A stretch of 33,480 bases of DNA. Origin: an uncultured Armatimonadota bacterium. Its GTDB lineage: Bacteria > Armatimonadota > Fimbriimonadia > Fimbriimonadales > Fimbriimonadaceae. The DNA lies in the NCBI GenBank assembly GCA_903833215.1, contig CAILEM010000117.1, positions 1 through 33,480 on the forward strand, written 5' to 3'. Of this stretch, positions 3,330-29,727 are shown piece after piece (the stretch's first letter is position 1; every line of letters begins with the position of its first letter). Under the pieces are notes generated by a model. That model was not told the DNA's origin. It was given only the letters and a program-made list of their open reading frames with translations, and did no database searches. Both the position numbers and the translations under genes were made by a program.

Positions 3330-3746
3330 TTGCTTCATCTCAAGACTAATGCCATTAGACGTCGCGTCGTTGTTACAACAAGTGCCCTGATCTGCTTCTT
3401 GGCCGTGCCGATGAGTTTCGGGTCCCAGAACGGAGTGCCATTTCAAAACGACATAGTGCCGACATTGGCCAATATCAACCACTCCCACTGCACGACACCC
3501 ACATACTCGTGCGAAAATCACGATTGTGTTACGGGCATGCAGATTAATATCCCTTGGTTGAGCTTCGGTGTCTGCTGTTCGGTAGTGACGGGCGGAGGAA
3601 CCCAGATCAAAACGTGTCAACCTGCCGAGGGAGCACTTACGTGCTGGCCATATTGGAATCAGTGTTCAACCGAGACCATTATGCTAGGCGGTTGCCCTGG
3701 CACATCGACCGTGGCGACAATCAAGCTCTACTCGATTGCCTGTTAG
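3330..3746 (+). CDS. Small secreted cysteine-rich protein, function unknown
   Basis: 138 residues from the TTG start chosen by the AAAGGAGG site. The N-terminus is a textbook Sec signal peptide: a basic patch (HLKTNAIRRR), a hydrophobic core (VVVTTSALICFLAVPM) and a small-residue cut region (SFGS). The mature part is about 105 residues with 10 cysteines. They include a CC pair in SFGVCCSVV, a TCQ...TCW...QCS...GGC series and a cysteine as the very last residue. An even number of cysteines in an exported protein suggests up to five disulphides. I do not recognise the family. It is the first gene of a five-gene same-strand run with a LolA-like protein, two DUF1573 proteins and an O-antigen-ligase-like protein. 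It could be a secreted substrate handled by those neighbours, a toxin-like or adhesive peptide, or a surface structural protein; the sequence does not decide. Confidence 0.65.
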   Translation: MLHLKTNAIRRRVVVTTSALICFLAVPMSFGSQNGVPFQNDIVPTLANINHSHCTTPTYSCENHDCVTGMQINIPWLSFGVCCSVVTGGGTQIKTCQPAEGALTCWPYWNQCSTETIMLGGCPGTSTVATIKLYSIAC

Positions 3747-3751
3747 CGTTC

Positions 3752-3798
3752 TAGAAGGAGGCATCTGCAGATTGACGGTTAGGCTGCGCCCCCTTCTA
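3752..3798 (+). promoter_or_regulatory. Stem-loop holding an unused Shine-Dalgarno-like sequence
   Basis: The 3752-3762 arm pairs with 3788-3798 (11 positions, one A-C mismatch), and GCAG 3767-3770 can pair with CTGC 3784-3787 inside. The left arm contains AGAAGGAGG but no sensible reading frame follows it. There is no T-tract, so it is not a standard intrinsic terminator. It lies between the cysteine-rich protein gene and the next gene, where it could stabilise or process the mRNA and set unequal expression. Confidence 0.4.
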
Positions 3799-3852
3799 AA
3801 ATGAATAAATGCGCTCCCAACGGCGCACGATCGCGCCCCTTGCAGATACATC

Positions 3853-4905
3853 ATGAAAATGAAAGTAAGTGTCGGCCATAGAATTCTAGTTTGCGGTGTT
3901 GTCGGCAGTATTCTTCTGCCAATGAGCCCGATTGCATACTCGCAAGCACCAAAACCAACAGTTGACCTGTTGCTTGCAAGTTGGAAGAAGCTGAGCCGCC
4001 AACTAAAGAGCGTGACCAAGTACGAAATCAATGGGTCATATACGCACGTTGCTTATTTGAAACAAACCTTGCGGGACGACGTAAATTGGAGAATCCTAAG
4101 AGATGGAGTGAAACTCCATTGGAGGTTCACGAGAACTTCATCGTACCAGCCCAAGGACATTGATGAAGCTGCATTCGACGGACTTCAATGGTACTCATCC
4201 GACCGAATCTCTTTGCCCGGTGTCGTGAGCCAAGGGCAGATTTGGACCGACCCCGTTCTAAAGATGGGCGAATTGCCGACAGACAAAATGCGGGCGGTTT
4301 CAATCGCCTATCCGTTCGATTTGAACCAACTCGTTGACCAACCCATTAAGTTTCTGGGCGGCTCACTTCCAGACGTGTTCCGCGAACGGGAAGGCGATCT
4401 TTCGGTAACAAACTCGGTTGGGAAACAGGCTCAGGACTTTACATTGTCTTTTAAGTCTAAGACCCCCCAGAACAATTTGCCGACAGCCGTGTACTTCACT
4501 GATATTGAAGATAAGTTTGTGCCAAGAGCCTTTTTATCTACACGTCCGGGTGTAAGTGTAATTCTGCAGTACACGGGATTTCAGACAATCGATTCCGTCG
4601 CCATACCCAATAGCTGGACTGAACAAGCATACACCGTCGACAGCGCAGGTAAAAGTACTCTCGTCGTTAAAAACACGGGCCGCTTTCAAGTTAGTCTGCC
4701 CCAACATATTCCTGACGACAACTTCCGCCTCACGTTCGACAAGTCAATGGCGGTCTACTCCCAAAAAACTGGAGATGTAGTGAGCCCGGAACAAATTTCG
4801 CATCGGCCTAAAGTGGCGAAAAGAGGAACCCTCGGCCTGATTATCGGGATAGTCGTGATCGCATTTGTCGCCATCGCCTTGGTTATCAGGCTGCGAAAGC
4901 GATAG
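3853..4905 (+). CDS. Periplasmic LolA/DUF2092-like protein with C-terminal membrane anchor (uncertain family)
   Basis: 350 residues. An N-terminal signal peptide (MKMKVSVGHRILVCGVVGSI..., ending about PIAYSQA) is followed by a region LLASWKKLSRQLKSVTKYEINGS. This resembles the start of LolA/LolB-fold proteins, in which a helix precedes a half-barrel. The rest is beta-rich with no catalytic motif. The C-terminus carries a single membrane helix (GLIIGIVVIAFVAIALVI) with a basic RLRKR tail, so the protein is probably anchored with its bulk in the periplasm. Family assignment is by general appearance only. It sits 106 bases after the cysteine-rich protein gene and 80 bases before the DUF1573 lipoprotein gene, all on one strand, which suggests a shared operon and perhaps a chaperone or lipid-handling role. 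The ATG has only a weak ribosome binding site. Confidence 0.5.
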   Translation: MKMKVSVGHRILVCGVVGSILLPMSPIAYSQAPKPTVDLLLASWKKLSRQLKSVTKYEINGSYTHVAYLKQTLRDDVNWRILRDGVKLHWRFTRTSSYQPKDIDEAAFDGLQWYSSDRISLPGVVSQGQIWTDPVLKMGELPTDKMRAVSIAYPFDLNQLVDQPIKFLGGSLPDVFREREGDLSVTNSVGKQAQDFTLSFKSKTPQNNLPTAVYFTDIEDKFVPRAFLSTRPGVSVILQYTGFQTIDSVAIPNSWTEQAYTVDSAGKSTLVVKNTGRFQVSLPQHIPDDNFRLTFDKSMAVYSQKTGDVVSPEQISHRPKVAKRGTLGLIIGIVVIAFVAIALVIRLRKR

Positions 4906-4985
4906 CTATTCGAAAACCTTGGTGAGCGCAATACTCTTGCTTGGCATGGCTCTCGGTCAGTAATCTGCCAGCAGGAAGGTGTTAT

Positions 4986-6050
4986 TTGAAGAAAGATATG
5001 AGTTCATACCACAAACCTCCAAGAAACACCGTTCCTCTTACCGTACGTAGACGCCGAATCTTCGCTACCTGTATACTGCAGATTGTTTCTTTTATCATTT
5101 TGTCTAGCTGCAACGGCACAAAAGGTCCTCCGCAGCTAATGGGCACAGAGAGATTATCAGCGTTAAGTAGTCATGGGTTCTATGCAGAAGATCAAGTTCC
5201 TGGAACGATTGAAGGTTCTACTGAAATCTCTAACACCGGATCCGCAGCCATCGGTCCACTTGAACTTAGCACATCTTGTGGTTGCCTTACACTCGACGGA
5301 CCTTCACGTGCTTTAACTTTGGCGGCACATCAGAAGTTTGCAGTAAGATTCCGATACCAAGTCGGGCTTTTGGGGAAGCAAACCCAAACGATTTTCGTCC
5401 GAAGAGCGGATGTCATCATTTGCCGCATTCCCGTCACCGTCGTGACAGTTGCACCCTTCGTTGACAGCACTAGTAAAAGGGTTGAAATGCCGCCGCTGCG
5501 GCGCGCCTACTCGTCCGCTTGGAGCGCTCCGGCCACATTTCGGCTCAAACTCGGCCAACATGTCAAGCTAGTGCGCCTCAAGACCTCGTGCTCGTGGATT
5601 AAGCTAGAGCAGAAAGCAGAGGGAGGAGAACTTGTCGGGACGGTCAGGGCGACCCCGAGTGCTGACGAGGGACCCTATAACGCTCCGGTTTCCGTCTATT
5701 ACTCGACAGCACGATCCGAAGGGATGACGACGATTTCATTCACAGGATCGATTACTTCGGATTTGATTTCGACTCCAGAAACTTTGGATTGGGGAATAGT
5801 TTCACTTACGAAGCCGTCGCCTGAGCTAGTGGCTAGTATTTCTTGGAAGAAGATGAACTGGAGAAGCTTGACGGTTCAGTCGACGTCGAAAGATATTTTG
5901 ACTCGTGTAATCTCCAATGGGCCCGAATCTTTGTCACTGGGCGTTCGGTTGCGGCAGCACACCACAGGTAATTTAAAATGTTGTCTTAAAATACTGGTCC
6001 TAAAGCACCTAGTTGCGGTGATTCCTATTAGGGCATACGTTATAAAGTGA
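4986..6050 (+). CDS. DUF1573-domain lipoprotein
   Basis: About 354 residues from TTG 4986, which has AGGAAGG six bases upstream. ATG 4998 is the alternative start. The N-terminus has four arginines, a hydrophobic segment and a lipobox LSSC (Cys 42 from the TTG), so it is a probable lipoprotein. The first folded part has the DUF1573 hallmark: an Ig-like immunoglobulin-type repeat EISNTGSAAIGPLELSTSCGC with the Cys-Gly-Cys pair (about residues 98-100), then a FRYQVG.LGKQTQTIFV strand. A second beta region contains a lone cysteine in KTSCSWI, so it may be a diverged copy of the domain. A third beta region follows (LDWGIVSLTKPSPE). DUF1573 proteins are exported Ig-like (ASPM-SPD-2-Hydin-type) domains of unsettled function. 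It lies 44 bases upstream of the O-antigen-ligase-like gene. Confidence 0.7.
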   Translation: MKKDMSSYHKPPRNTVPLTVRRRRIFATCILQIVSFIILSSCNGTKGPPQLMGTERLSALSSHGFYAEDQVPGTIEGSTEISNTGSAAIGPLELSTSCGCLTLDGPSRALTLAAHQKFAVRFRYQVGLLGKQTQTIFVRRADVIICRIPVTVVTVAPFVDSTSKRVEMPPLRRAYSSAWSAPATFRLKLGQHVKLVRLKTSCSWIKLEQKAEGGELVGTVRATPSADEGPYNAPVSVYYSTARSEGMTTISFTGSITSDLISTPETLDWGIVSLTKPSPELVASISWKKMNWRSLTVQSTSKDILTRVISNGPESLSLGVRLRQHTTGNLKCCLKILVLKHLVAVIPIRAYVIK

Positions 6051-6094
6051 GAGCGTGGCGTCACTCACAAGAATGGTAGGATCAATAGATTATC

Positions 6095-7375
6095 GTGAGA
6101 CTAAAATCGGAGCGCGTTTCACATCTATTGCCCGTATTATCACAGGCGGCCTGTAGCTCGACGGTTGTCTTTGTGCTTATTGCTGCGCTTTGCCCATTTC
6201 CGCTTCGGGCGGCCCAACCTCTTGGAATCCCATACAGAGGTCTTCAGGAGCTACTTGAGCGCCCTGCCATATCCGGCTTTGTAAGTTGCGTACTAATACT
6301 GACCGTGCTTTCTGTTCTCATTCGGACTCTGACTCCTCCATCTCTGCCTGTAATATGTGTGTCGTTTCTTTGCTGGTTTTCCCTTAGAGGGCAGAACCTG
6401 GCCGACCAGAATATTCTAGTCGGCCAGTGGTTTGTGTTTTTGCTAGCATTCATGCTGCGGGGCAAAGCGCCTCATGCAGTGTTATGCATTTTGCTAGTGA
6501 TCCTGACGTTGCATGTCACCTCAGGGTTAATCCTGTACTGCATAGGTGCGCACCAATTCGTGACGCCAGGGTTCGGGCGGCGCCTCAGTGGGTTATATGA
6601 AAATCCAGACACATTCTACCCTTTAGCAATCTTGTCGCTAGCCTGGTCCCTGACCGTCGGCCTTAGTTCAAGGTTCACGATGAAGTCTCTTTGGTTCTTC
6701 CTGGCCGGATTATCATCTGTCTCCATTGTTTTGACCTTCTCCCGCTCAGCCATTCTTGGGCTGAGCGTGGTGTACGCTCTGCAGAGTTGGAGGCTGTCAT
6801 CGGGTGCCGGAAAGGTATTCATGGTGTGTATCGCCTGTGTGTGCCTACTGTTGTCTGTCTTTGTGCGGAGTCCCAGTAGCAAATTCGCATTCTTTTCAGA
6901 TCGATCTGCAAGAGGTCGAATTGCAATCTGGCATTACTGCATTCTTAAAATTGAGCAGGAACCTTTTGGGGGATTCGGGCTCGAGTCGTTCGAACGGTTG
7001 TCAACCAGTGAGCCCGGGGCGAGTCTGGCGGGCCTTGGAGCTCTTCCATCTGAGAGCAAGAACTTGTTCTTAAATGTTCTGCTGGATCTCGGATTACCAG
7101 GCTTGGCAGCTCTCATAGTGTTTGCAGGGGCGACATTCAAATGTGCTTCTTTGAGGCGATCGATGCCTCCTTACCCGTGGCATGAACGTGCTTTGGATGG
7201 TATTGTGACGATCGCCATGCCCGCACTGTTAGTCTGCGGAGTTTTCGATACACCTTTGTTCTCAGACGCATCGCGTACGCCGGGTTCGATTGCGTTTATG
7301 ACTCTGGCCGGTCTCTGCGTCGGTTACCGTTATCGGCAGAGCTTGGTCCCTGCGGGGTTGTCTGCTTGTCCATAG
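6095..7375 (+). CDS. O-antigen ligase/polymerase (Wzy_C, WaaL-type) family membrane protein
   Basis: 426 residues with a GTG start and about ten hydrophobic segments. The family signature is visible: NPDTFYPLA in the middle, FSRSAILGL (the basic loop helix), then RGRIAIWHYC at about 273-282, EPFGGFGLESF, and ESKNLFLNVLLDLGLPGL near 320-337. Relatives join sugar chains to lipid or protein acceptors on the outer face of the inner membrane. The loop normally reads as a His-Asn-x-x-Leu motif, and the histidine appears replaced by Lys322. It may therefore be a diverged ligase acting on something other than O-antigen. No glycosyltransferase or polysaccharide gene is nearby, which is unusual for this family. 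The downstream DUF1573 gene starts 8 bases after its stop, so translation is probably coupled. Confidence 0.7.
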   Translation: MRLKSERVSHLLPVLSQAACSSTVVFVLIAALCPFPLRAAQPLGIPYRGLQELLERPAISGFVSCVLILTVLSVLIRTLTPPSLPVICVSFLCWFSLRGQNLADQNILVGQWFVFLLAFMLRGKAPHAVLCILLVILTLHVTSGLILYCIGAHQFVTPGFGRRLSGLYENPDTFYPLAILSLAWSLTVGLSSRFTMKSLWFFLAGLSSVSIVLTFSRSAILGLSVVYALQSWRLSSGAGKVFMVCIACVCLLLSVFVRSPSSKFAFFSDRSARGRIAIWHYCILKIEQEPFGGFGLESFERLSTSEPGASLAGLGALPSESKNLFLNVLLDLGLPGLAALIVFAGATFKCASLRRSMPPYPWHERALDGIVTIAMPALLVCGVFDTPLFSDASRTPGSIAFMTLAGLCVGYRYRQSLVPAGLSACP

Positions 7376-7383
7376 CCGCACGT

Positions 7384-7803
7384 ATGAATCGGCCAATCGC
7401 TGCTGTAGTGTTGTGCTGCTTCACTTTTCTGGTTCTGATAGTTCTAGGCAACGTGTTTGATGGCGACTTGTCTGTCTCGCCAAGAAGAGTCGAAATAACC
7501 GCCACTGCTAACAAAGTGCAAATCTTCAAGATTGCCATCAGAAACCGCTCTTGGAGGTTTGTCAACCTGGAACTTGAACCTGGCTGTGGATGCACCACGG
7601 GAGTCCTTGGCACACACCAGTTGATTCCTTATGGAGCCACCACTCTCACGTTGGTTGTCGACACTCAAGAAATAACAGGACCCTTTGTATTCGTCATACA
7701 CTCTGACCTCCACGTTCCACAAGAGATTGCAATCGACGTCTTGTACAAAGACAGTCCGAGAGCCCATCCGGTCAACAAATATCCAGGCGTCAGATCGTAT
7801 TAA
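7384..7803 (+). CDS. Short membrane-anchored DUF1573 protein
   Basis: 139 residues from ATG 7384. An in-frame TTG at 7366, which would overlap the previous gene, is possible. A hydrophobic N-terminal segment (PIAAVVLCCFTFLVLIVLG) acts as signal or anchor. A single Ig-like domain follows with the DUF1573 hallmark PGCGCTTG, preceded by IRNRSWRFVNLELE and followed by LIPYGATTLTLVVDT. It is thus a one-domain relative of the DUF1573 lipoprotein encoded two genes upstream. It is the last gene of the five-gene run and is immediately followed by IS21 remains. The Cys-Gly-Cys pair is conserved in both paralogues, which fits a role with metal, thiol chemistry or a cysteine-rich partner; the partner is my inference. 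Confidence 0.65.
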   Translation: MNRPIAAVVLCCFTFLVLIVLGNVFDGDLSVSPRRVEITATANKVQIFKIAIRNRSWRFVNLELEPGCGCTTGVLGTHQLIPYGATTLTLVVDTQEITGPFVFVIHSDLHVPQEIAIDVLYKDSPRAHPVNKYPGVRSY

Positions 7804-8208: not shown

Positions 8209-8411
8209 TAATTCAGGGAACTTGTGGAGGAAGATCCGCCGCATCACGCGGTAGGGGACTTCTCTGGCTTTACGTTCGGTGATTTCCCGACTGAGTTTCC
8301 TTCGGTACAGATCTTGGGTTCTTTGATTCCAGTTTCATCTGGCTGAGAGTAGAGATAGTCCATAGTGCGATACGTTTGGGATAGATTTCCTAACGATCAT
8401 CCTGTTGCCGG

Positions 8412-8478
8412 TGCCGGTCGAAAAATACAGAGGTCTGCCGGTCGAAAAGTACAGAACTGTGCCGGTCGAATTATGCAC
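8412..8478 (+). repeat. Three 19-bp direct repeats with exact 24-bp period (IS21 end repeats)
   Basis: The unit TGCCGGTCGAAAAATACAG begins at 8412, is repeated with one change at 8436, and recurs with a diverged second half at 8460. Multiple short internal repeats at each end, bound by the transposase, are typical of IS21-family elements. They lie between the dead istA start and the istB gene and could belong to either. Confidence 0.7.
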
Positions 8479-8521
8479 AACTTGTAGGGTTTTAGAGTGC
8501 TTGGAGGGGACGAATCTCTGA

Positions 8522-8575
8522 GGATTTCCAGGGAAGTAGGAGGGAGCGTAGCGACCGACGTTTCCCTGGAAATCC
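8522..8575. repeat. 14-bp perfect inverted repeat downstream of istB
   Basis: The 8522-8535 arm (GGATTTCCAGGGAA) is matched perfectly by 8562-8575, with a 26-base spacer. It sits 22 bases after the istB stop on the minus strand. It lacks a T-tract, so it may be an RNA structure or a protein site rather than an intrinsic terminator. Confidence 0.6.
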
Positions 8576-8597
8576 GGCGGCCGCTCCCCCTGGGGTG

Positions 8598-9353
8598 TTA
8601 TGCGGTTCTTGCCTGAAGGCTCTGTGCGAGTCGATAGCTTCTAGCGTTCATTTCAAGGATATGAACGTGATGGGTCAAGCGATCGAGCATCGCGTGGGTG
8701 AGCGGTTCGGAGGCAAGTACAGATATCCATTCCTCGAATGGCAGGTTGGTTGTCAGAACGATAGACCGTCTCTCATACCTGTCGGAAATGACTTCGAAGA
8801 GCAGATCGGCACCGGTAGCCGGGAGCGGAACAAAGCCGAGTTCATCCAGGACGAGTAGATCAAGCTTCTTTAGAGCTGTCCGCATTCTTGAGAGTGCACG
8901 TTCAGATCTCGCCTCAATGAGAGCCTCTACGAGTTGCGAGACCGTGTAGAAGCGAACGGAGAGCTTGTGCTTGCATGCTTCCACCGCGATCGCCGTTGCA
9001 AGGTGTGTTTTGCCAGTGCCGTTACCTCCGACAAGCAGCACATTCTCGGCCTTGGCTACGAACTCACAGCTTGCGAGCTGGTGGACTTTCATTGGATCCA
9101 AAGCAGGGATAGCAGCGAAGTCGAATTCGGCGAGCGTCTTCTTTGACGGCAGCCGAGCATCCTTGATCCGTTTGGCAAAGACCCTTGCATCGCGGTCTGC
9201 GAGTTCCATCTCCATCAACTTCAGGAGATACCGCTCGTGGGAAACACCTTCATTTACAGCATCGACTGCCGTCTTTGCGTACTCGCGCTTGACGCTTGGC
9301 AGACGAAGTGTCTTGAGATGTGCTGCTAGACTCAGCCTCTCTCCTGGGTTCAT
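8598..9353 (-). CDS. istB: IS21-family ATPase helper IstB, intact
   Basis: 251 residues, full length for IstB. The AAA+ (DnaA/DnaC-like) ATPase shows Walker A GGNGTGKTHLA at about 109-118 (the usual GPPGTGKT has GN here), Walker B LLVLDELGF, the sensor segment RSIVLTTNLPFEEW and the C-terminal AMLDRLTHHVHIL...SYRL. The N-terminal LKTLRLPSVKREY helix is also typical. IstB loads target DNA for the IstA transposase. Its ATG overlaps the stop of the upstream istA tail by the ATGA arrangement usual in IS21. There is no functional istA here, so this copy cannot move unless a transposase is supplied elsewhere. Confidence 0.92.
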   Translation of the reverse strand: MNPGERLSLAAHLKTLRLPSVKREYAKTAVDAVNEGVSHERYLLKLMEMELADRDARVFAKRIKDARLPSKKTLAEFDFAAIPALDPMKVHQLASCEFVAKAENVLLVGGNGTGKTHLATAIAVEACKHKLSVRFYTVSQLVEALIEARSERALSRMRTALKKLDLLVLDELGFVPLPATGADLLFEVISDRYERRSIVLTTNLPFEEWISVLASEPLTHAMLDRLTHHVHILEMNARSYRLAQSLQARTA

Positions 9354-23175: not shown

Positions 23176-23631
23176 TTAGGGTTTCTTAGGAGCCGTCTCG
23201 ACGACGGCGCTTAATCGAATGGTCGTCTTCTTGTCCTTGGAGCTAATTGTCAAGGCCACTGAAGACTTGTTAGCCGATGACCCAAGAAACTCTGCATTGC
23301 CGTTGTTCATTCCACCATTAAGAACGGGAATCTTGCTCTTATAGAACGAAACCACTTTGGGTAGAGGATCAGGTGTGACCAACACAAGTGTGTAACGCCC
23401 TTCGGTTACGCCCATCGTGACAGAGCTTTGGCCCTCAGGAGCTTCAGCACCAGGGTACAGCGGCACGCCTTGTTTTGTAGCCATCTCTTCTTTGCCGATG
23501 GCAACGGCGCCTTCCGGCTTTGCGTCTTTGACGACATGGATGGCGTCTGAATCTGGATTTGATCCGGATGAATTACACCCGCCGACGGCGAGTAATAGAC
23601 CTAAACTTAGAGCGACTGTTCCGTATCTCAC
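23176..23631 (-). CDS. Small lipoprotein, function unknown
   Basis: 151 residues from GTG 23631. An in-frame TTG at 23676 would add 15 residues. I chose the GTG because a TAGAAT box lies exactly five bases before it, as in other genes here, and because it places the signal peptide at the very N-terminus (RYGTVALSLGLLLAVGGC). The cysteine after AVGG marks a lipoprotein. The mature part has a low-complexity linker and then a small alpha/beta region (GVPLYPGAEAPEG...YTLVLVTPDPLPKVVSFYKSKI) resembling families in which a folded YPGA-type segment reports protein instability or metal state. I cannot name the family with confidence. Confidence 0.65.
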   Translation of the reverse strand: MRYGTVALSLGLLLAVGGCNSSGSNPDSDAIHVVKDAKPEGAVAIGKEEMATKQGVPLYPGAEAPEGQSSVTMGVTEGRYTLVLVTPDPLPKVVSFYKSKIPVLNGGMNNGNAEFLGSSANKSSVALTISSKDKKTTIRLSAVVETAPKKP

Positions 23632-23636
23632 ACTCG

Positions 23637-23642
23637 ATTCTA
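23637..23642 (-). promoter_or_regulatory. -10 box five bases before a GTG start (leaderless type)
   Basis: On the minus strand TAGAAT is followed by CGAGT and then GTG 23631. The expected start site therefore falls on or next to the start codon. No -35 was found. Confidence 0.5.
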
Positions 23643-23735
23643 ACGTGAATAAACGTTTTTGCACAGCTAGAACCAATTGTTGGGGTTTCTGCCGCTCGAA
23701 TGTTGGATAGAGAGGAGACGCACGCCTAAGCCCGG

Positions 23736-23741
23736 TACAAT
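23736..23741 (+). promoter_or_regulatory. -10 box five bases before a GTG start (leaderless type)
   Basis: TACAAT is followed by CGAAC and then GTG 23747 of the pseudouridine synthase gene. There is no Shine-Dalgarno, so initiation on a leaderless message is likely. Confidence 0.55.
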
Positions 23742-23746
23742 CGAAC

Positions 23747-24649
23747 GTGGAGTACGAAGTCGATCAAAAGGAGCGCCTAGACAAGTTTCTAGCACAAATG
23801 CTCCCGGAGCACAGCCGCACACGTCTAGCGAAGATCGTGGAATCAGGGTTGGTTCTCGTGAATGGCGTCGCTCAAAAGCCATCTTTTGCCCTTCAACCGG
23901 GTATGTCAGTGTCCATTCCAGAGTTAGGGCCGACGGAGGTCCATGACTTGACGCCAGCCTACATTCCGCTTGAGATTCTATTTGAAGATGAGTCTTTGCT
24001 CGTAGTAAATAAGCCGCGTGGCTTGGCCGCCCACCCAGCTGCATCGCTTAAGGAGCCCTCACTAGTTAACGCCCTCTTGGCGAGAAACACCTCTCTGAGT
24101 CAGACTGCCGGTTCGTTTCGACCTGGAATTGTCCACCGTCTTGACAAAGAGACGACTGGCCTCATGGTTGTTGCCAAAACTGATAAGGCGCACGTGCTGC
24201 TGGCAAAGCAGATGGAAACTAAGACTGCCGAACGTCGGTACTTTGCCGTCGTCGCTGGCGATATTGAGCAGACGCATTTCAAGATTGATGGTCCGATCGC
24301 GAGAGACAAACATAACCGCCTGTTGATGACCGTAGATCCGAATGGAAAGCACGCGGTTACGTACATCAAGCGAATCGCGCGGTGTACTCAGGGGATTCTT
24401 GTTGGTGCTCGCCTTGAAACAGGTCGTACCCATCAGATTCGCGTTCACCTAAGGGCAGTAGGACATCCGATTCTAGGAGATAAGGTTTACGCCCCACGAG
24501 AATTTGGGTCAGGTCCAATGCAATTGCACGCTGCCTATCTTGCTTTTGATCATCCCGTCAGCGGGGAGCGAATTGCAATCTACGCCGACCCTGATGATTC
24601 CTTCTATGGTCGTGATTTTGTGAGCCGGAAACACTTAGAAGACTTTTAG
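23747..24649 (+). CDS. RluA-family 23S rRNA pseudouridine synthase
   Basis: 300 residues, normal for RluC/RluD-type enzymes. The N-terminal S4 RNA-binding domain (RLDKFLAQMLPEHSRTRLAKIVESGLVLVNG) is followed by the catalytic domain. It contains NKPRGLAAHP, the active-site motif HRLDKETTGLMVVAKT (catalytic Asp133), RYFAVVAGD and LETGRTHQIRVHL..GHPILGDKVY. The enzyme isomerises uridines in large-subunit rRNA, as RluD does for U1911/1915/1917 in E. coli; the exact sites here are unknown. The GTG start sits right behind a TACAAT box, so this is a leaderless housekeeping gene. It is divergent from the small lipoprotein gene. Confidence 0.92.
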   Translation: MEYEVDQKERLDKFLAQMLPEHSRTRLAKIVESGLVLVNGVAQKPSFALQPGMSVSIPELGPTEVHDLTPAYIPLEILFEDESLLVVNKPRGLAAHPAASLKEPSLVNALLARNTSLSQTAGSFRPGIVHRLDKETTGLMVVAKTDKAHVLLAKQMETKTAERRYFAVVAGDIEQTHFKIDGPIARDKHNRLLMTVDPNGKHAVTYIKRIARCTQGILVGARLETGRTHQIRVHLRAVGHPILGDKVYAPREFGSGPMQLHAAYLAFDHPVSGERIAIYADPDDSFYGRDFVSRKHLEDF

Positions 24650-24676
24650 GAAGCGACAAACATTTACCGGTTAGGC

Positions 24677-24682
24677 TACGAT
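24677..24682 (+). promoter_or_regulatory. -10 box six bases before an ATG start (leaderless type)
   Basis: TACGAT is followed by GGAGTT and then ATG 24689. A GCGACA 18 bases upstream (24653-24658) could act as a -35. The GGAG is too close to the ATG to work as a ribosome binding site. Confidence 0.45.
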
Positions 24683-24688
24683 GGAGTT

Positions 24689-25393
24689 ATGAAAACAAAT
24701 CTGGGGTATCGCGGCCTCGGGCTTTTGATATTGTTATCGTGTTGCGTGGTGGCTGTCGCTCAGGGTGGAGCACAACAGGCCAGAGGTAATCCTCCGAGAC
24801 CACAGCTTCGAGTGATTGATGGCAAGCTTGGAGAGTGGGTTGGTGTTGGCTCATTTCGGTATCGAGCAACCTCCACGGCAAGCGGGCTAAGAGACTATCG
24901 GCAGCAATATAACCAAGGTGGAAAGCGGTTGCATCCTGGTTTTCCTTCGGATAGGCTCGCGGTTGTCCAATTGGAAGTGCTCAATATGTCCCCTCGAGCG
25001 GTTGAACCACCGATCTTCATGGCTGCTTTGATCGACAGCGATGGAGTGCGAGGAACAGACTGGCTTCTGGACGTAAGGCAACAGGCATTTCTGGAAGAAT
25101 CTTCTCGTGGCGGTCGCGCTTCGTCAAGAATTCCTGCGATGATCGCGAGCAACCAGACCATGAAGATGGCGGTTGTTTTCAGCATCTCCGCCAAGGCAAA
25201 GCCAGTCAGCTTAGAGTTTTCTCCAGAGAACTTCCGTGACATGCGTTTTGGAGATGCAGGTCGATATCAGCGGGGTGGAGCCGTGCCTACACCCGCTCAA
25301 GGGCAGATCGGTCCCCGTGGTGGCGGTCAAAATCGACAAGGTCCTCCGCGTGACGCGATCCGCGTAAGCATTGATCTTGTTCACACCAAATAA
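24689..25393 (+). CDS. Secreted protein, function unknown
   Basis: 234 residues. A signal peptide (GLGLLILLSCCVVAVAQG) is followed by a Gly/Gln/Pro linker and a beta-rich domain (LRVIDGKLGEWVGVGSFRYRATS... LAVVQLEVLNMSPRAVEPPIFMAALIDSDG). The hydrophobic pattern looks like an Ig-like extracellular domain of the DUF4352 kind, but I cannot assign the family. The C-terminus is a disordered Gly/Arg/Gln-rich tail (about residues 190-225). It stands alone between the pseudouridine synthase gene and a good terminator, with its own promoter. A structural or binding role on the cell surface is possible; no catalytic motif was seen. Confidence 0.6.
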   Translation: MKTNLGYRGLGLLILLSCCVVAVAQGGAQQARGNPPRPQLRVIDGKLGEWVGVGSFRYRATSTASGLRDYRQQYNQGGKRLHPGFPSDRLAVVQLEVLNMSPRAVEPPIFMAALIDSDGVRGTDWLLDVRQQAFLEESSRGGRASSRIPAMIASNQTMKMAVVFSISAKAKPVSLEFSPENFRDMRFGDAGRYQRGGAVPTPAQGQIGPRGGGQNRQGPPRDAIRVSIDLVHTK

Positions 25394-25415
25394 GCTTAGG
25401 CTGTAAATCGACAAT

Positions 25416-25456
25416 ATGGCCGCTGCCCGGATCTTTGGGCAGCGGCTATTTTGTTT
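25416..25456 (+). terminator. Intrinsic terminator
   Basis: A GC-rich stem (25419-25428 with 25437-25446, extendable to 25416/25449 with one G-T pair) has an eight-base loop and is followed by TATTTTGTTT. It is a textbook rho-independent terminator for the secreted protein gene. Confidence 0.9.
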
Positions 25457-25509
25457 GGTTGAATCCTTGCCCGTTGCTCCTTATCTCGTCCGGACTGGAT
25501 GGCATGGGT

Positions 25510-25515
25510 GATAAT
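25510..25515 (+). promoter_or_regulatory. -10 box six bases before an ATG start (leaderless type)
   Basis: GATAAT is followed by AGACTC and then ATG 25522. This supports the short form of the hydrolase instead of an in-frame start 29 codons upstream. Confidence 0.5.
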
Positions 25516-25521
25516 AGACTC

Positions 25522-26199
25522 ATGAGTTCGGAGATGATTCAGTTCAGTGCAGGCAATACCAATGTGGATGCCTACTTGGCCCCGGCCGTTGGGGGCAAAG
25601 GCCCAGGCATTATCGTGCTTCAGGAGTGGTGGGGATTGGTTCCTCACATCAAGAACGTGGCGGATCGCTTTGCTGCCGCGGGATTCACTGCTTTGGCACC
25701 CGACCTCTACGGCGGTAAGACGGCAACCGAGCCGGACGATGCCGGATCGTTAATGATGGCGTTGGGCATTGGTGAGACCGAACGGGTTCTGGCTGAAGCC
25801 GTTGCCGCTCTCCTTGCCAATCCAGCCACTCAAGGCGACAAGGTTGGTGTCGTTGGCTTTTGCATGGGCGGACAACTTTCGCTATTTGCTGCATGCTGCA
25901 ATCCAGCGATACGGGCATGCGTCGATTTCTACGGAATCCATCCTAATGTGCAGCCCGCCCTTCGTGACTTGAACGGGCCTGTCCTTGGGATTTTCGCAGA
26001 AGACGATGCGTACGCTGGACCGGACCAGGTCAACGCCCTTACTGAAGAATTGACACTGCTCGGAAAACCCCACCAGTTCATCACCTATCCCGGAACCAAG
26101 CATGCCTTCTTCAACGATGAGCGGCCAGCTTACAATGAAGAGGCAGCGAAAGATGCTTGGTCACGGGTCACTGCGTTCTTCACGGAAGAGCTAGGGTAA
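25522..26199 (+). CDS. Dienelactone hydrolase family protein
   Basis: 225 residues from ATG 25522, chosen because GATAAT lies six bases upstream. The in-frame start at 25435 sits in the terminator of the previous gene. The alpha/beta-hydrolase of the DLH family shows IIVLQEWWGLVPHIKNVADR at the start, the nucleophile elbow GFCMGG with Cys114 in place of serine, Asp161 in FAEDDAY and His194 in GTKHAFFND: a complete Cys-Asp-His triad. Relatives open the lactone ring of dienelactone in chlorocatechol breakdown or act on other small esters. No aromatic-degradation genes are nearby, so the natural substrate is unclear. It is probably cytoplasmic, as no signal peptide was found. Confidence 0.88.
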   Translation: MSSEMIQFSAGNTNVDAYLAPAVGGKGPGIIVLQEWWGLVPHIKNVADRFAAAGFTALAPDLYGGKTATEPDDAGSLMMALGIGETERVLAEAVAALLANPATQGDKVGVVGFCMGGQLSLFAACCNPAIRACVDFYGIHPNVQPALRDLNGPVLGIFAEDDAYAGPDQVNALTEELTLLGKPHQFITYPGTKHAFFNDERPAYNEEAAKDAWSRVTAFFTEELG

Positions 26200-26254
26200 G
26201 GCCGACAACCTGCACTCATTGAACTACGGATTCAAATAGACGCGTCTACTGACC

Positions 26255-27550
26255 ATGGTGCTTCTGTCATCACTTGTTGCCTTCGTCGCCCTGTTGAATC
26301 CACAGAGTGATGATTCTCTGTTGGCGAAGCTTGTTCATTCACCGACGGGCAAAAATGGTTATGAGGACTACCTCCGAGCGGGTGATATCGCGGGTAGTGA
26401 GCTTTGGGGAAAATACGAAACCTGGATCGCTTATCAACGACAGTTGGTTCGTTCAGCATCAAGAGGACCCGAAGATCAGCCCGAAATGCCTGAGGTCCCG
26501 TTGGGCGTCACTCCAGGTATGTCAGAGCTATCTGTTCGCAAAGTTGCGAACGATCGACTCGGGGGAGTATGCGCCGTCATTGAACTTGGGAATCGGAAAC
26601 CCGTATCCGATCCTCGCCCTTCTTACTCGATGTCAACGCCGGTGCCTGAGCTTGGTCGGTTCAAGATGCTCGCCAAGATCTATGCAAATCGGGCTCATGT
26701 AGAATTTGCCGATGGGCGGTCTGGTCTTGCCGTAAAAGACTTGATCGAAGGAATGAAGTTTGGTCGCGGACTCTTTGGATCAACTGTGATCTCCAGCATG
26801 GTTTCTATTGCGATTCAGGCGATCATGCTCGCAGAGTTCCAGGAGCACCTGGGGCAATTATCGCTGACAGATGCGCAACTGATCCAGAAGTATTGCCGGG
26901 CTACTCTCAACACACCGCTTCCAATGGGTGAGGTTCTAAAACGAGAGTTCGATGCGGTTACAGGTTCCCTGGATGAGATCATTGATCATCCAAGTGTCGC
27001 CCTCAATGAAGACCTGAACAAGGAGTTTGGACCTGCGTTAAGCTCTCTTGGGAGTGCAGAACGACAAAAGCTGAAGGGGCTTGTCACGAATTCCATGCAC
27101 GAACGGTACGCTGAGATGGCCTTTAAACTAACGAGTTCCGCGTCGACTTGGCCTCTGAACGATGCTTCAACTGATCCAATCATTCGCAAAGAAGATCACT
27201 CGGTCTCAAACCTCGCCCTTCTCCTGGTAACTGAACTTTACGGAAAAGATCAGCAGCGCCAATACACGCGTGCTCTAGCCAGGATTCAAATTCAACTACG
27301 ACTCTTAATGCTGCACGGGAAGCTCATCGATTATCACTGGCAGCATAATCGTTGGCCTCTGAACATTGAAGAGTTTGCCGATCCGTTTTCGGCGATGGAC
27401 CCTTTTAGCGGAGAACCATTTCACTACGAATTCAAAGAGGGAAGTTATCGCCTCTTCAGCATCGGCATTCCTGGCTTAGGGCCGATTGAACTGAAATACA
27501 GACCACTACCAAATTTGCAGCAGGCAGGAGCAATTCGTCCGCCGGCGTAA
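26255..27550 (+). CDS. Secreted protein with pseudopilin-like C-terminus, function unknown
   Basis: 431 residues. A short signal peptide (MVLLSSLVAFVALLNPQ) starts the protein. The middle is mostly helical, with LGRFKMLAKIYANRAHVEFADG.SGLAVKDLIEGMKFGR reading like a helical repeat. The C-terminus (HQHNRWPLNIEEFADPFSAMDPFSGEPFHYEFKEGSYRLFSIG, quoted as short runs WPLNIEEF, DPFSGEPFHY and YRLFSIG) resembles the C-terminal segment of pseudopilins of the DPFSG-type, although no prepilin leader is present. I know the pattern from proteins of unknown function in Armatimonadota and Planctomycetota. It is convergent with the NTF2-like array. Function cannot be stated. Confidence 0.6.
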   Translation: MVLLSSLVAFVALLNPQSDDSLLAKLVHSPTGKNGYEDYLRAGDIAGSELWGKYETWIAYQRQLVRSASRGPEDQPEMPEVPLGVTPGMSELSVRKVANDRLGGVCAVIELGNRKPVSDPRPSYSMSTPVPELGRFKMLAKIYANRAHVEFADGRSGLAVKDLIEGMKFGRGLFGSTVISSMVSIAIQAIMLAEFQEHLGQLSLTDAQLIQKYCRATLNTPLPMGEVLKREFDAVTGSLDEIIDHPSVALNEDLNKEFGPALSSLGSAERQKLKGLVTNSMHERYAEMAFKLTSSASTWPLNDASTDPIIRKEDHSVSNLALLLVTELYGKDQQRQYTRALARIQIQLRLLMLHGKLIDYHWQHNRWPLNIEEFADPFSAMDPFSGEPFHYEFKEGSYRLFSIGIPGLGPIELKYRPLPNLQQAGAIRPPA

Positions 27551-27574
27551 AGTTAGCAGTGGTCTGTTTGGCGT

Positions 27575-28105
27575 CTAGCCGGTCGGAATGGACTTTCCGT
27601 CTTGTGTTGCCGTCTCTGTAAGAGTCTTCGAAACCTTGAGTTTCCAGGCTGATCCCACTTTAACCCAAGTGTCTTCGCTCTTCGACTTCTGTACGAATTT
27701 GTGAGGTGGGTTCGTTTTGTCAGATTTCGTCGTCATAGCGACTACCGAATTTACGGTCGCAACGGCGACACCCTTCTTGACGACGACGTGGTCAATCTTT
27801 GAAGAACATTCGTAAACGACGTCGATGGAAGGCATGACGCCTTCCATCGATTGCATCGCATCTTCACGAGTTTTGGCCTGCGTCTTACCAGAACCATCTG
27901 GCTTGGAAATAAAGCTGCAGTCACTCGTCGAAACCTGACTAAGGAGCAGTCGCAAGCCCTTAATGTCTTTCTTGCTGGCGAGATTGTCCATTTTCGCGTA
28001 GATGGACTGAAGGGTTACTTTGACCTGAGCTGGCGATTGAATAGCAAATGCCGACGAGGTGGCAATCGCTAAGTAGATGGCGAGGATAGATTTAGCTGTT
28101 TTCAT
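27575..28105 (-). CDS. Secreted NTF2-like (DUF4440/SnoaL-type) protein, array copy 4
   Basis: 176 residues from ATG 28105 (MKTAKSILAIYLAIATSSAFA signal peptide). An in-frame TTG at 28126 is a less likely start. The mature protein has the pattern shared by the four neighbours: an I..IYAKMD helix, ASKKDIKGLRLLLS, a F..KPDGSGK turn, a strand region with VV.KKGVAVATV, and SEDTWVKVGSAWKLK near the end. That W-x-x-x-GS-WKL ending is typical of NTF2-like cone-shaped folds, where it forms the last strands. It is closest to copy 3. It is the last gene of a four-gene tandem array and ends against the opposing 431-residue secreted protein gene. Two cysteines, in TSDCSF and YECSS, could form a disulphide. 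Confidence 0.65.
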   Translation of the reverse strand: MKTAKSILAIYLAIATSSAFAIQSPAQVKVTLQSIYAKMDNLASKKDIKGLRLLLSQVSTSDCSFISKPDGSGKTQAKTREDAMQSMEGVMPSIDVVYECSSKIDHVVVKKGVAVATVNSVVAMTTKSDKTNPPHKFVQKSKSEDTWVKVGSAWKLKVSKTLTETATQDGKSIPTG

Positions 28106-28136
28106 ATTCGTATTTGTGAACCGCAAGGCAGATTAG

Positions 28137-28652
28137 TTATTGGGAGAACGGCTTGCCATCAAGCGTTTTAGAATCTCCGGCGCTTTTCGAAGTCCTCAAT
28201 TTCCAATCAGACCCGATGCGTACCCAGGTGTCCTCGGCGAGGATTCGGCTCCCCAACCTATGAATTTTTCCATCGCCTTTGGGAAGGCTGGTCATTTGAA
28301 TGTCGATAATGACGTAAGCCACGATTGAATCCTTGGCAGTCACCAATTTTTTGACCTGGGTGGATGCCTTCGAAAAGGTAGCGATCATTGGCATGACCTT
28401 TTCGAGATCGTTAATCGTTTCTTGTCTCGTCCGCGTCTTGGACTTTCCTGAACGATCAGGCGGGAAGAGGAATAAATAGTCTTGGGCGGTATTGGCCACC
28501 ATTAGCTTGCGCAAACCCTCAACGTCCTTCTTAAGTGTGAGCTTATCAACCTTGGCGTAATAAGCCTTGATTGTTTTGGTTCCATTCGATTGAGCCGCAC
28601 TGGCTCCCCCAACAAGGACGGCTAGGACGGCGATAGACGTTAGGATTTTCAT
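28137..28652 (-). CDS. Secreted NTF2-like protein, array copy 3
   Basis: 171 residues. The signal peptide is MKILTSIAVLAVLVGGASA. The fold pattern follows copy 4 closely: IKAYYAKVDKLTLKKDVEGLRKLM, FLFPPDRSGKSKTRTRQE, then VVMP-type spacing and ILAEDTWVRIGSDWKLR before a short tail ending in DGKPFSQ (copy 4 ends DGKSIPTG). The two are probably a recent duplication relative to copies 1 and 2. NTF2-like exported proteins bind small hydrophobic ligands or act as assembly scaffolds; no catalytic residues can be pointed out here. The gap to copy 2 is 61 bases, so the copies may be one transcript. Confidence 0.65.
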   Translation of the reverse strand: MKILTSIAVLAVLVGGASAAQSNGTKTIKAYYAKVDKLTLKKDVEGLRKLMVANTAQDYLFLFPPDRSGKSKTRTRQETINDLEKVMPMIATFSKASTQVKKLVTAKDSIVAYVIIDIQMTSLPKGDGKIHRLGSRILAEDTWVRIGSDWKLRTSKSAGDSKTLDGKPFSQ

Positions 28653-28713
28653 TTAGGTTGTCTCAATTTCAGTTGCTCAACGAGTTTGACATATGAGGCA
28701 AAGGGGTCCAGAT

Positions 28714-29208
28714 TCAATTTGTCACTGCCCTACCATCGCGGATCAAGTTTTCGGAGACGACATGCGATAGCTTTAGCTTCCATGACCCCTTGATCTGTAC
28801 CCATACGTCGACTCCGTGCACGGTTTGACTAATTGTATGAATACGTTTCTCAGTCGGAGACTGTGAGGTGAGTTCGATCACCGTGGTAATCGTCGCGACA
28901 CTTGATGCGGCATTTACCTTTAGGTCTTCGATTTTCACGGTGGCCTTTCGAACGTTATACGCGCCGAGCACACTCTTCATAGACGAAATAATCTCTGGCA
29001 GCTTGCGGTTTGGTTTGCCGGGCGACGTGTAGGTAAAGTCGGTCGTCCTCGTCTGGATGAAGAAGTCACCAAGCTTGTTAAGATCTTTCTTGACCAATAG
29101 AGAAGTAGATTGATCGTACAGTGCCTGGATTTTTGGTCTCACCGGGGCCAATTGGGGCTGGGCACCAGCCTGGCTAACCATGAGCACGACAGCGAATGGC
29201 CACTTCAT
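28714..29208 (-). CDS. Secreted NTF2-like protein, array copy 2
   Basis: 164 residues. The signal peptide is MKWPFAVVLMVSQAGAQ. The domain pattern is IQALYDQSTSLLVKKDLNKLGDFF, then FTYTSPGKPNRKL, and near the end DVWVQIKGSWKLKLSH with a short tail ending DGRAVTN. It starts six bases after the stop of copy 1, so translation is probably coupled. Copies 1 and 2 share the FTYTS motif. Role unknown, as for the other copies. Confidence 0.65.
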   Translation of the reverse strand: MKWPFAVVLMVSQAGAQPQLAPVRPKIQALYDQSTSLLVKKDLNKLGDFFIQTRTTDFTYTSPGKPNRKLPEIISSMKSVLGAYNVRKATVKIEDLKVNAASSVATITTVIELTSQSPTEKRIHTISQTVHGVDVWVQIKGSWKLKLSHVVSENLIRDGRAVTN

Positions 29209-29214
29209 TTCAAA

Positions 29215-29694
29215 CTAACCGCCTTCTTGATGCATCTGAGTATCCGCATTGATTTGAATGACCTTCACAAGTTTCCAATCCGACCCCGACTGTTGCCAGG
29301 TTTCATACGTCACGCTTTGATCGGTTAGTGTCAATCTTCGAGAATCGAAAACCACGAGTCCTTTGAACTCGGTGGCGACGGTCGCGACAATCGTTGTCCC
29401 TGTTCGCTTGAATTCTCGAACCTGAAGTGTGGATTGAAGCACCTTGGTGGTCTGAGCTAATTGGCCCAAGATGCCGTTTTGATATCCCGCTCGGTCAAAT
29501 TTGGCTTTGTGATACGACGTGTACGTGAATTTGGAGGCGCAGTTGGACTCAATCCAAGCGCGCATTCCCTTGGAATCGCTCTTTAAAATGTTTTTGTTGA
29601 ACTGCTGATAACGCTTCGTCAGGATCTCTTGGGGCGTTGCGCCAAGGCTAATGGCGGCGAGCGCCAAGAGGGGCAATGAGGCCAGTCGCTTCAT
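29215..29694 (-). CDS. Secreted NTF2-like protein, array copy 1
   Basis: 159 residues from ATG 29694. The frame is open to 29808, but the ATG at 29694 gives the signal peptide at the N-terminus (MKRLASLPLLALAAISLGA), and a promoter with CACAAT five bases away precedes it. The mature part reads ILTKRYQQFNKNILKSDSKGMRAWI, then KFTYTSYHKAKFD, and ends VTYETWQQSGSDWKLVKVIQ, the same plan as the other three. It is the first gene of the array and divergent from smc. No known catalytic signature. Confidence 0.65.
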   Translation of the reverse strand: MKRLASLPLLALAAISLGATPQEILTKRYQQFNKNILKSDSKGMRAWIESNCASKFTYTSYHKAKFDRAGYQNGILGQLAQTTKVLQSTLQVREFKRTGTTIVATVATEFKGLVVFDSRRLTLTDQSVTYETWQQSGSDWKLVKVIQINADTQMHQEGG

Positions 29695-29699
29695 ATCCC

Positions 29700-29727
29700 A
29701 TTGTGGCATGACGTCGATTAGGTTCAA
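29700..29727 (-). promoter_or_regulatory. Promoter of the NTF2-like array (leaderless type)
   Basis: On the minus strand TTGAAC (29722-29727), 16 bases, CACAAT (29700-29705), five bases, then ATG 29694. It is the best -35/-10 pair seen in the window and puts the start site at the first codon. Confidence 0.5.

Follow-up and report, generated by a model that had tools for sequence, protein, structure and literature searches.

Boxes of the −10 type at start codons suggest leaderless genes in an uncultured Armatimonadota bacterium

Do genes whose start codon follows a −10-like box by only five or six bases give rise to mRNAs without a leader? The question is raised by five genes in a 33,480-nucleotide stretch of DNA from an uncultured Armatimonadota bacterium (contig C117 of an assembly of 6.22 Mb in 168 contigs; hereafter, the window). 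An earlier note on this DNA had reported a box 5 or 6 bases before each of the five starts and had read this placement as leaderless transcription. All five box positions were re-found exactly, and the five starts indeed have no useful Shine-Dalgarno (SD) sequence, in spite of GGAG 2 bases ahead of ATG 24689. Such boxes stand at a fixed distance from start codons across the genome, are enriched over several controls, and are present through the genus, family and order. They are best explained as sigma-70-type −10 boxes at start codons that yield leaderless or near-leaderless mRNAs, a reading that we hold with considerable confidence. The five boxes are listed below with their decoy fractions, that is, the share of internal in-frame ATG/GTG codons that score at least as high as the box with a −10 matrix trained without the window genes.

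23637-23642, minus strand: TAGAAT, 5 bases ahead of GTG 23631; decoy fraction 0.0005
23736-23741, plus strand: TACAAT, 5 bases ahead of GTG 23747; decoy fraction 0.0016
24677-24682, plus strand: TACGAT (−10-like), 6 bases ahead of ATG 24689; decoy fraction 0.020
25510-25515, plus strand: GATAAT (−10-like), 6 bases ahead of ATG 25522; decoy fraction 0.064
29700-29705, minus strand: CACAAT (−10-like), 5 bases ahead of ATG 29694; decoy fraction 0.018

Position of the box in the genome and its relatives

To place the five boxes in their genome, we used the window and 1.31 Mb from other contigs (81 sequences, 1.342 Mb of the 6.22 Mb). This sample yielded 867 called genes (72.5% coding), whose putative starts were picked from coding score and type of start codon; no upstream signal entered the choice, and none can therefore bias the box count. 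The caller misses short or atypical genes, and genes starting too near the ends of stretches were left out. Ahead of the 867 starts, TANNNT occurs 30, 67 and 20 times at −13, −12 and −11, respectively, over a flat background of ~9.5 per position between −45 and −18 (Poisson P = 2e-35 for the peak). The earlier note had proposed a genome-wide count of TANNNT at −13 to −11, and the count shows the enrichment: 115 of 867 starts (13.3%) carry the motif, compared with 118 of 10,003 internal in-frame ATG/GTG decoys (1.2%) and 36 of 849 ATG/GTG triplets upstream of genes (4.2%). With the identical pipeline, the motif was found at these positions in 1/161 starts in 200 kb of Escherichia coli K-12 and in 14/119 starts in 200 kb of a Deinococcus deserti plasmid, from a clade well known for leaderless genes. 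A mix of 80 named loci proved to be a poor negative control, being itself slightly enriched (43/641), as expected for mixed phyla.

The same spacing emerges from a gene-free count, in which TANAAT-N6-ATG occurs 29 times in the 1.342 Mb and every other gap from 2 to 15 gives 5–15 matches. The boxes are spread over contigs, with 6–21 matches in each of 7 large contigs. Within the window, 3 of the 21 starts picked by the caller have a strict TANNNT at −13 to −11, which makes the window average and no hot spot. The enrichment is thus real and belongs to the genome at large rather than to the window. When starts were re-selected with learned matrices, a strict box was found in 149/879 (17%). The true matrix gave 87 genes with a score >4, and four matrices with permuted columns gave 4, 11, 14 and 26, indicating that re-selection inflates the counts somewhat. 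About 13–17% of genes are served by the −10-box mode, beside the SD mode. Mixture weights from expectation-maximization (EM) were dropped as estimates of gene fractions, as shuffled upstream sequences were also heavily weighted, and the counts were relied on instead.

For the relatives, TANAAT-N6-ATG was compared with TANAAT-N11-ATG, gene-free and in whole genomes. A control consisting of the pattern read backwards was too lenient, because the gap-11 pattern also exceeds it in the own genome (54 vs 22), and gap 11 was used in its place. Gap 6 prevails over gap 11 in the own genome (95 vs 54), in 19/19 same-genus genomes (1202 vs 544; P < 0.05 in 18), in 5/5 same-family genomes (259 vs 78) and in 16/16 same-order genomes (832 vs 498; P < 0.05 in 11), and hence in 41/41 genomes. 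Furthermore, in 200-kb samples the peak at −13 to −11 is clear in two family members (18/156 in G107 and 29/171 in G024) and weaker in a genus member (12/145 in G007).

A survey of the phylum, based on an even draw of 81 genomes from 28 families and a Bonferroni limit, gave significance in 15/81 genomes and 4/28 families, namely f1 (7/10 genomes), f16 (5/6), f23 (2/3) and f18 (1/2). Family f16 is strong, with 963 vs 259 matches, and families f11, f17 and f19 show no excess, with gap-6/gap-11 ratios of 0.96, 0.85 and 0.81; in AT-rich genomes the background is high, and weak gap-6 signals would be missed there. Box-led starts are therefore common to the relatives, and their distribution across the phylum is patchy. 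A clade with such a family-level pattern is useful for studying the gain and loss of leaderless initiation. We put forward, tentatively and as a possibility rather than an expectation, that leaderless genes have an unreported stronghold in this phylum, where they have been gained or lost by family (strong in f16, absent from f11, f17 and f19) and use a −35-less promoter that owes its strength to GG-TANA(A/C)T. If so, the phylum would form a natural series in which to study how genomes shift between SD-led and leaderless initiation.

Separately, two f16 genomes show a gap-6 excess much above that of the own genome, G051 with 345 vs 63 and G103 with 286 vs 49, and perhaps make far heavier use of leaderless genes.

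The five genes and their orthologues

The five boxes precede genes of different kinds:

23176-23631, minus strand: predicted lipoprotein, 151 aa; lipobox-like N terminus by eye; no Pfam match
23747-24649, plus strand: RluA/RluD-type pseudouridine synthase, 300 aa; Pfam PF00849 (PseudoU_synth_2) 6.4e-32, PF01479 (S4) 3.3e-11
24689-25393, plus strand: open reading frame (ORF), 234 aa; signal-peptide-like N terminus by eye; no Pfam match; atypical codon score
25522-26199, plus strand: dienelactone hydrolase family protein, 225 aa; Pfam PF01738 3.1e-54
29215-29694, minus strand: predicted secreted protein, 159 aa; no Pfam match

The boxes of the lipoprotein gene (23631, minus strand) and the pseudouridine synthase gene (23747, plus strand) are individually strong, while those at 24689, 25522 and 29694 are individually suggestive. 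The leaderless reading is accordingly graded: it is well supported, on sequence evidence, for the genome and for the former two genes, and it is plausible for the latter three. There are specific caveats on two of these. The codon model scores ORF 24689-25393 below every called gene of at least 300 bases, and for gene 29694 a competing start lies at ATG 29709, preceded by the comparable box CCTAAT (decoy fraction 0.051). The view that the boxes help to choose starts is fair for three genes (23631, 23747 and 25522), whose starts are the ones that coding score picks by itself; at 29694 the caller takes 29709, and at 24689 it calls no gene. On the scale of the genome, SD-tuned gene callers will misplace about 1 start in 7, and the box corrects starts.

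A homologue search with the pseudouridine synthase gave 264 relatives, of which the best 80 were kept (38–47% identity, many phyla). Of 30 rluD loci, 28 were scored; L183 and L188 have no start codon at the aligned position and were excluded. A box with a decoy fraction of at most 0.05 stands at the matching place in 12/28, the own gene included, and 8/28 remain at 0.01; the bases around the box are largely unlike. Two same-genus loci, L176 and L178, have an SD-like AGGAAG before the rluD orthologue in place of the box.

For the lipoprotein gene, the orthologue search gave 4 matches in all. The close relatives carry a box at the matching place, TAGAAT-N5-GTG in L164 and TAAAAT-N5-GTG in L166; the more distant L176 and L178 gave no clear readout. 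In L164, the two divergent GTG starts lie 51 bp apart, each with its own box (TAGAAT-N5-GTG and TAAAAT-N5-GTG), an arrangement that leaves hardly any room for leaders. For 25522, the L166 orthologue shows TAGGAT-N6-ATG, and L164 lacks a clear box at this spacing. No orthologue of 24689 or 29694 was found among the relatives' loci compared, so that the evidence for these two genes comes from the window.

Promoter role, leader length and rival explanations

The genome consensus at these starts is (G)(G)TANA(A/C)T, with its peak at −12. A box at −12 occurs in 67 genes, and these show an excess of G in both bases that immediately precede it (38/67 and 34/67 vs 225/752 and 192/752) and at −2 (29/67 vs 134/752), as well as an excess of C at −1 (31/67 vs 226/752, P = 0.0086). 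Neither TTG nor base composition shows a peak near −35 among these genes. Extended −10 promoters, which carry TGn, need no −35 element; here T is not enriched (P = 0.46), and the G-enriched pair before the box is reminiscent of TGn, not equal to it. The box is commoner at operon heads than inside operons (87/576 vs 12/152, P = 0.023), and SD sequences go in the opposite direction (50/576 vs 27/152, P = 0.0027), the pattern that a promoter role of the box would produce.

From these features we infer that the boxes act as sigma-70-type −10 promoter elements. A −10 element and the first transcribed base are usually separated by six bases, the same number that lies between a box at −12 and the start codon, which would make the transcript begin with that codon. 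Transcription would thus set in at the start codon's first base or no more than one or two bases from it, the resulting mRNAs would be leaderless or nearly so, and translation would follow a start-codon-first route that needs no SD sequence. By this reasoning, the mRNA probably starts at, or a few bases from, the start codon in about 1 gene in 7. The earlier note's claim of leaderless starts draws support from the positional peak, the decoy and E. coli controls, the operon heads, the relatives and the orthologues.

The mechanism is already known and is established in other phyla, and this clade is a further case. In the account of Zheng et al. (2011, PMC3160421), TANNNT ~12 bp upstream marks bacterial leaderless genes, which occur mixed with SD genes and average 39%, 19% and 13% among positive genomes of Deinococcus-Thermus, Actinobacteria and Acidobacteria, respectively. 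The consensus, the ~12-bp distance and the mixture with SD genes are all alike here, but the clade is another one, the share is ~13–17% of genes, and the case is known from sequence. Zhong et al. (2025, PMC12340547) describe a Deinococcus-Thermus box directly before the ORF, without a ribosome-binding site, and support its −10 role by mutation and reporters. They also scanned the bacterial domain (Fig. S7); the phylum considered here differs from theirs, and its motif falls within their domain-wide general result. In GeneMarkS-2 predictions, as given in PMC9581028, 21.6% of bacterial species have leaderless transcription, which accounts for up to 40% of transcripts; the present genome is of the same mixed kind. 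Usage of SD sequences in Fimbriimonadia, a class of Armatimonadota, is given as low, 25%, in PMC10783764, which would fit much SD-less initiation if the genome belongs there; leaderless genes of Fimbriimonadia are not reported in the portion of that paper concerned, from which we claim no absence from print.

How short the leaders are is less certain than the role of the box. The box could be a promoter whose transcripts start 1–5 bases upstream of the start codon, giving very short leaders rather than none, an alternative that we regard as possible yet clearly the less likely. The distance from a −10 element to the start site varies among bacteria, and there is a secondary enrichment of TANNNT at −17 to −14 (18, 13, 15 and 11 vs a background of 9.5). 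However, the peak at −12 leaves a discriminator of 6 bases, as is typical when transcription begins on the A of ATG, and −10 boxes farther out are far rarer. That the A/T-rich box is instead a translation signal, a non-canonical ribosome-binding site as in Bacteroidetes, we consider highly improbable: although the box also precedes some genes inside operons (12/152), TANA(A/C)T with its near-invariant T, A and final T is the −10 consensus, the box prefers operon heads, the anti-SD sequence CCTCC is intact in both 16S genes, and SD motifs are in use.

There is equally little to be said for a chance or selective reading, according to which a loose TANNNT can always be found near some starts. Three of the five window boxes have decoy fractions of 0.018–0.064, GATAAT and CACAAT do not conform to TANNNT, and the original choice of starts was free. 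Against this stand the genome-wide peak, the gene-free gap count and the recurrence across the clade, which refute chance at the level of the whole genome; it may still account for individual genes, 24689 or 29694 for example.

Several results weigh against leaderless transcription from −10 promoters as the reading of these boxes. At the promoter itself, the pyrimidine at −1 that is the initiator signature is not significant (P = 0.097), the 12/152 inside-operon starts with a box exceed the 1.2% decoy rate, and the depletion of TTG starts in the box class is not significant (2/115 vs 30/752, P = 0.30). Leaders of 1–3 bases are not distinguishable from none by this analysis. Among relatives, 16/28 rluD orthologues exceed a decoy fraction of 0.05, some carrying an SD-like motif instead, and the order member G029 has no significant peak at −13 to −11 in 200 kb (10/160, P = 0.084). 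Finally, the best 6 of 40 runs of random-start EM were all SD-like and did not recover the −10 motif, and the likelihood gain of EM was 53 on shuffled upstream sequences vs 239 on real ones, with inflated weights. EM also failed to recover the −10 motif on the D. deserti plasmid (119 genes), though the position count showed it there.

Shine-Dalgarno use and the 3.3–7.8 kb cluster

SD sequences are a general second mode of this genome. An SD 5-mer lies at −16 to −8 in 84/867 starts, compared with 3.2% of decoys, and a large share of genes has neither strict signal, box or SD. None of the 115 box starts has the 5-mer at these positions, a weak test since SD and box overlap physically. The two 16S genes of the assembly (L001 on contig C167 and L002 on contig C37) are only 73.5% identical, so that one of the two contigs probably belongs to a different organism; for the assembly, a contaminant share of 1.8% is reported.

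The cluster at 3.3–7.8 kb had been set apart in the earlier note by its SD signals, which were taken to hint at a different origin. Neither point stands. A good SD precedes 2 of its 5 genes, at TTG 3330 (AGGAGG) and TTG 4986, and is lacking at ATG 3853, GTG 6095 and ATG 7384. Good SD sequences also precede typical genes at 9353, 12177 and 13553 (minus strand) and 16746 (plus strand), and with SD as a general second mode, its use is no sign of foreign origin and was rejected as such. The cluster is nevertheless atypical by the codon model, an argument separate from SD: 4 of the 5 ORFs in 3330-7803 score below all called genes of at least 300 bases, a comparison that is partly circular because the caller requires a minimum score. 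One of the ORFs is an O-antigen ligase-like membrane protein (Wzy_C), and another resembles DUF1573, below the curated cut-off.

The cluster also contains one further box:

3797-3809, plus strand: TAAAAT-N6-ATG 3809; decoy fraction 0.0002; strongest further such box in the window

ATG 3809 begins an ORF of 15 codons, and its stop codon and ATG 3853 overlap in the sequence ATGA (3797-3856). This ORF is possibly a leaderless leader peptide that is translationally coupled to the 3853 gene, or the TAAAAT at 3797 may simply be a promoter that gives the 3853 gene a 44-base leader.

Beyond the cluster, the region 8410-9353 holds an IS21-type IstB gene, adjoined at ~8410-8470 by several short tgccggtcga repeats, which are likely the ends of the insertion sequence (IS).

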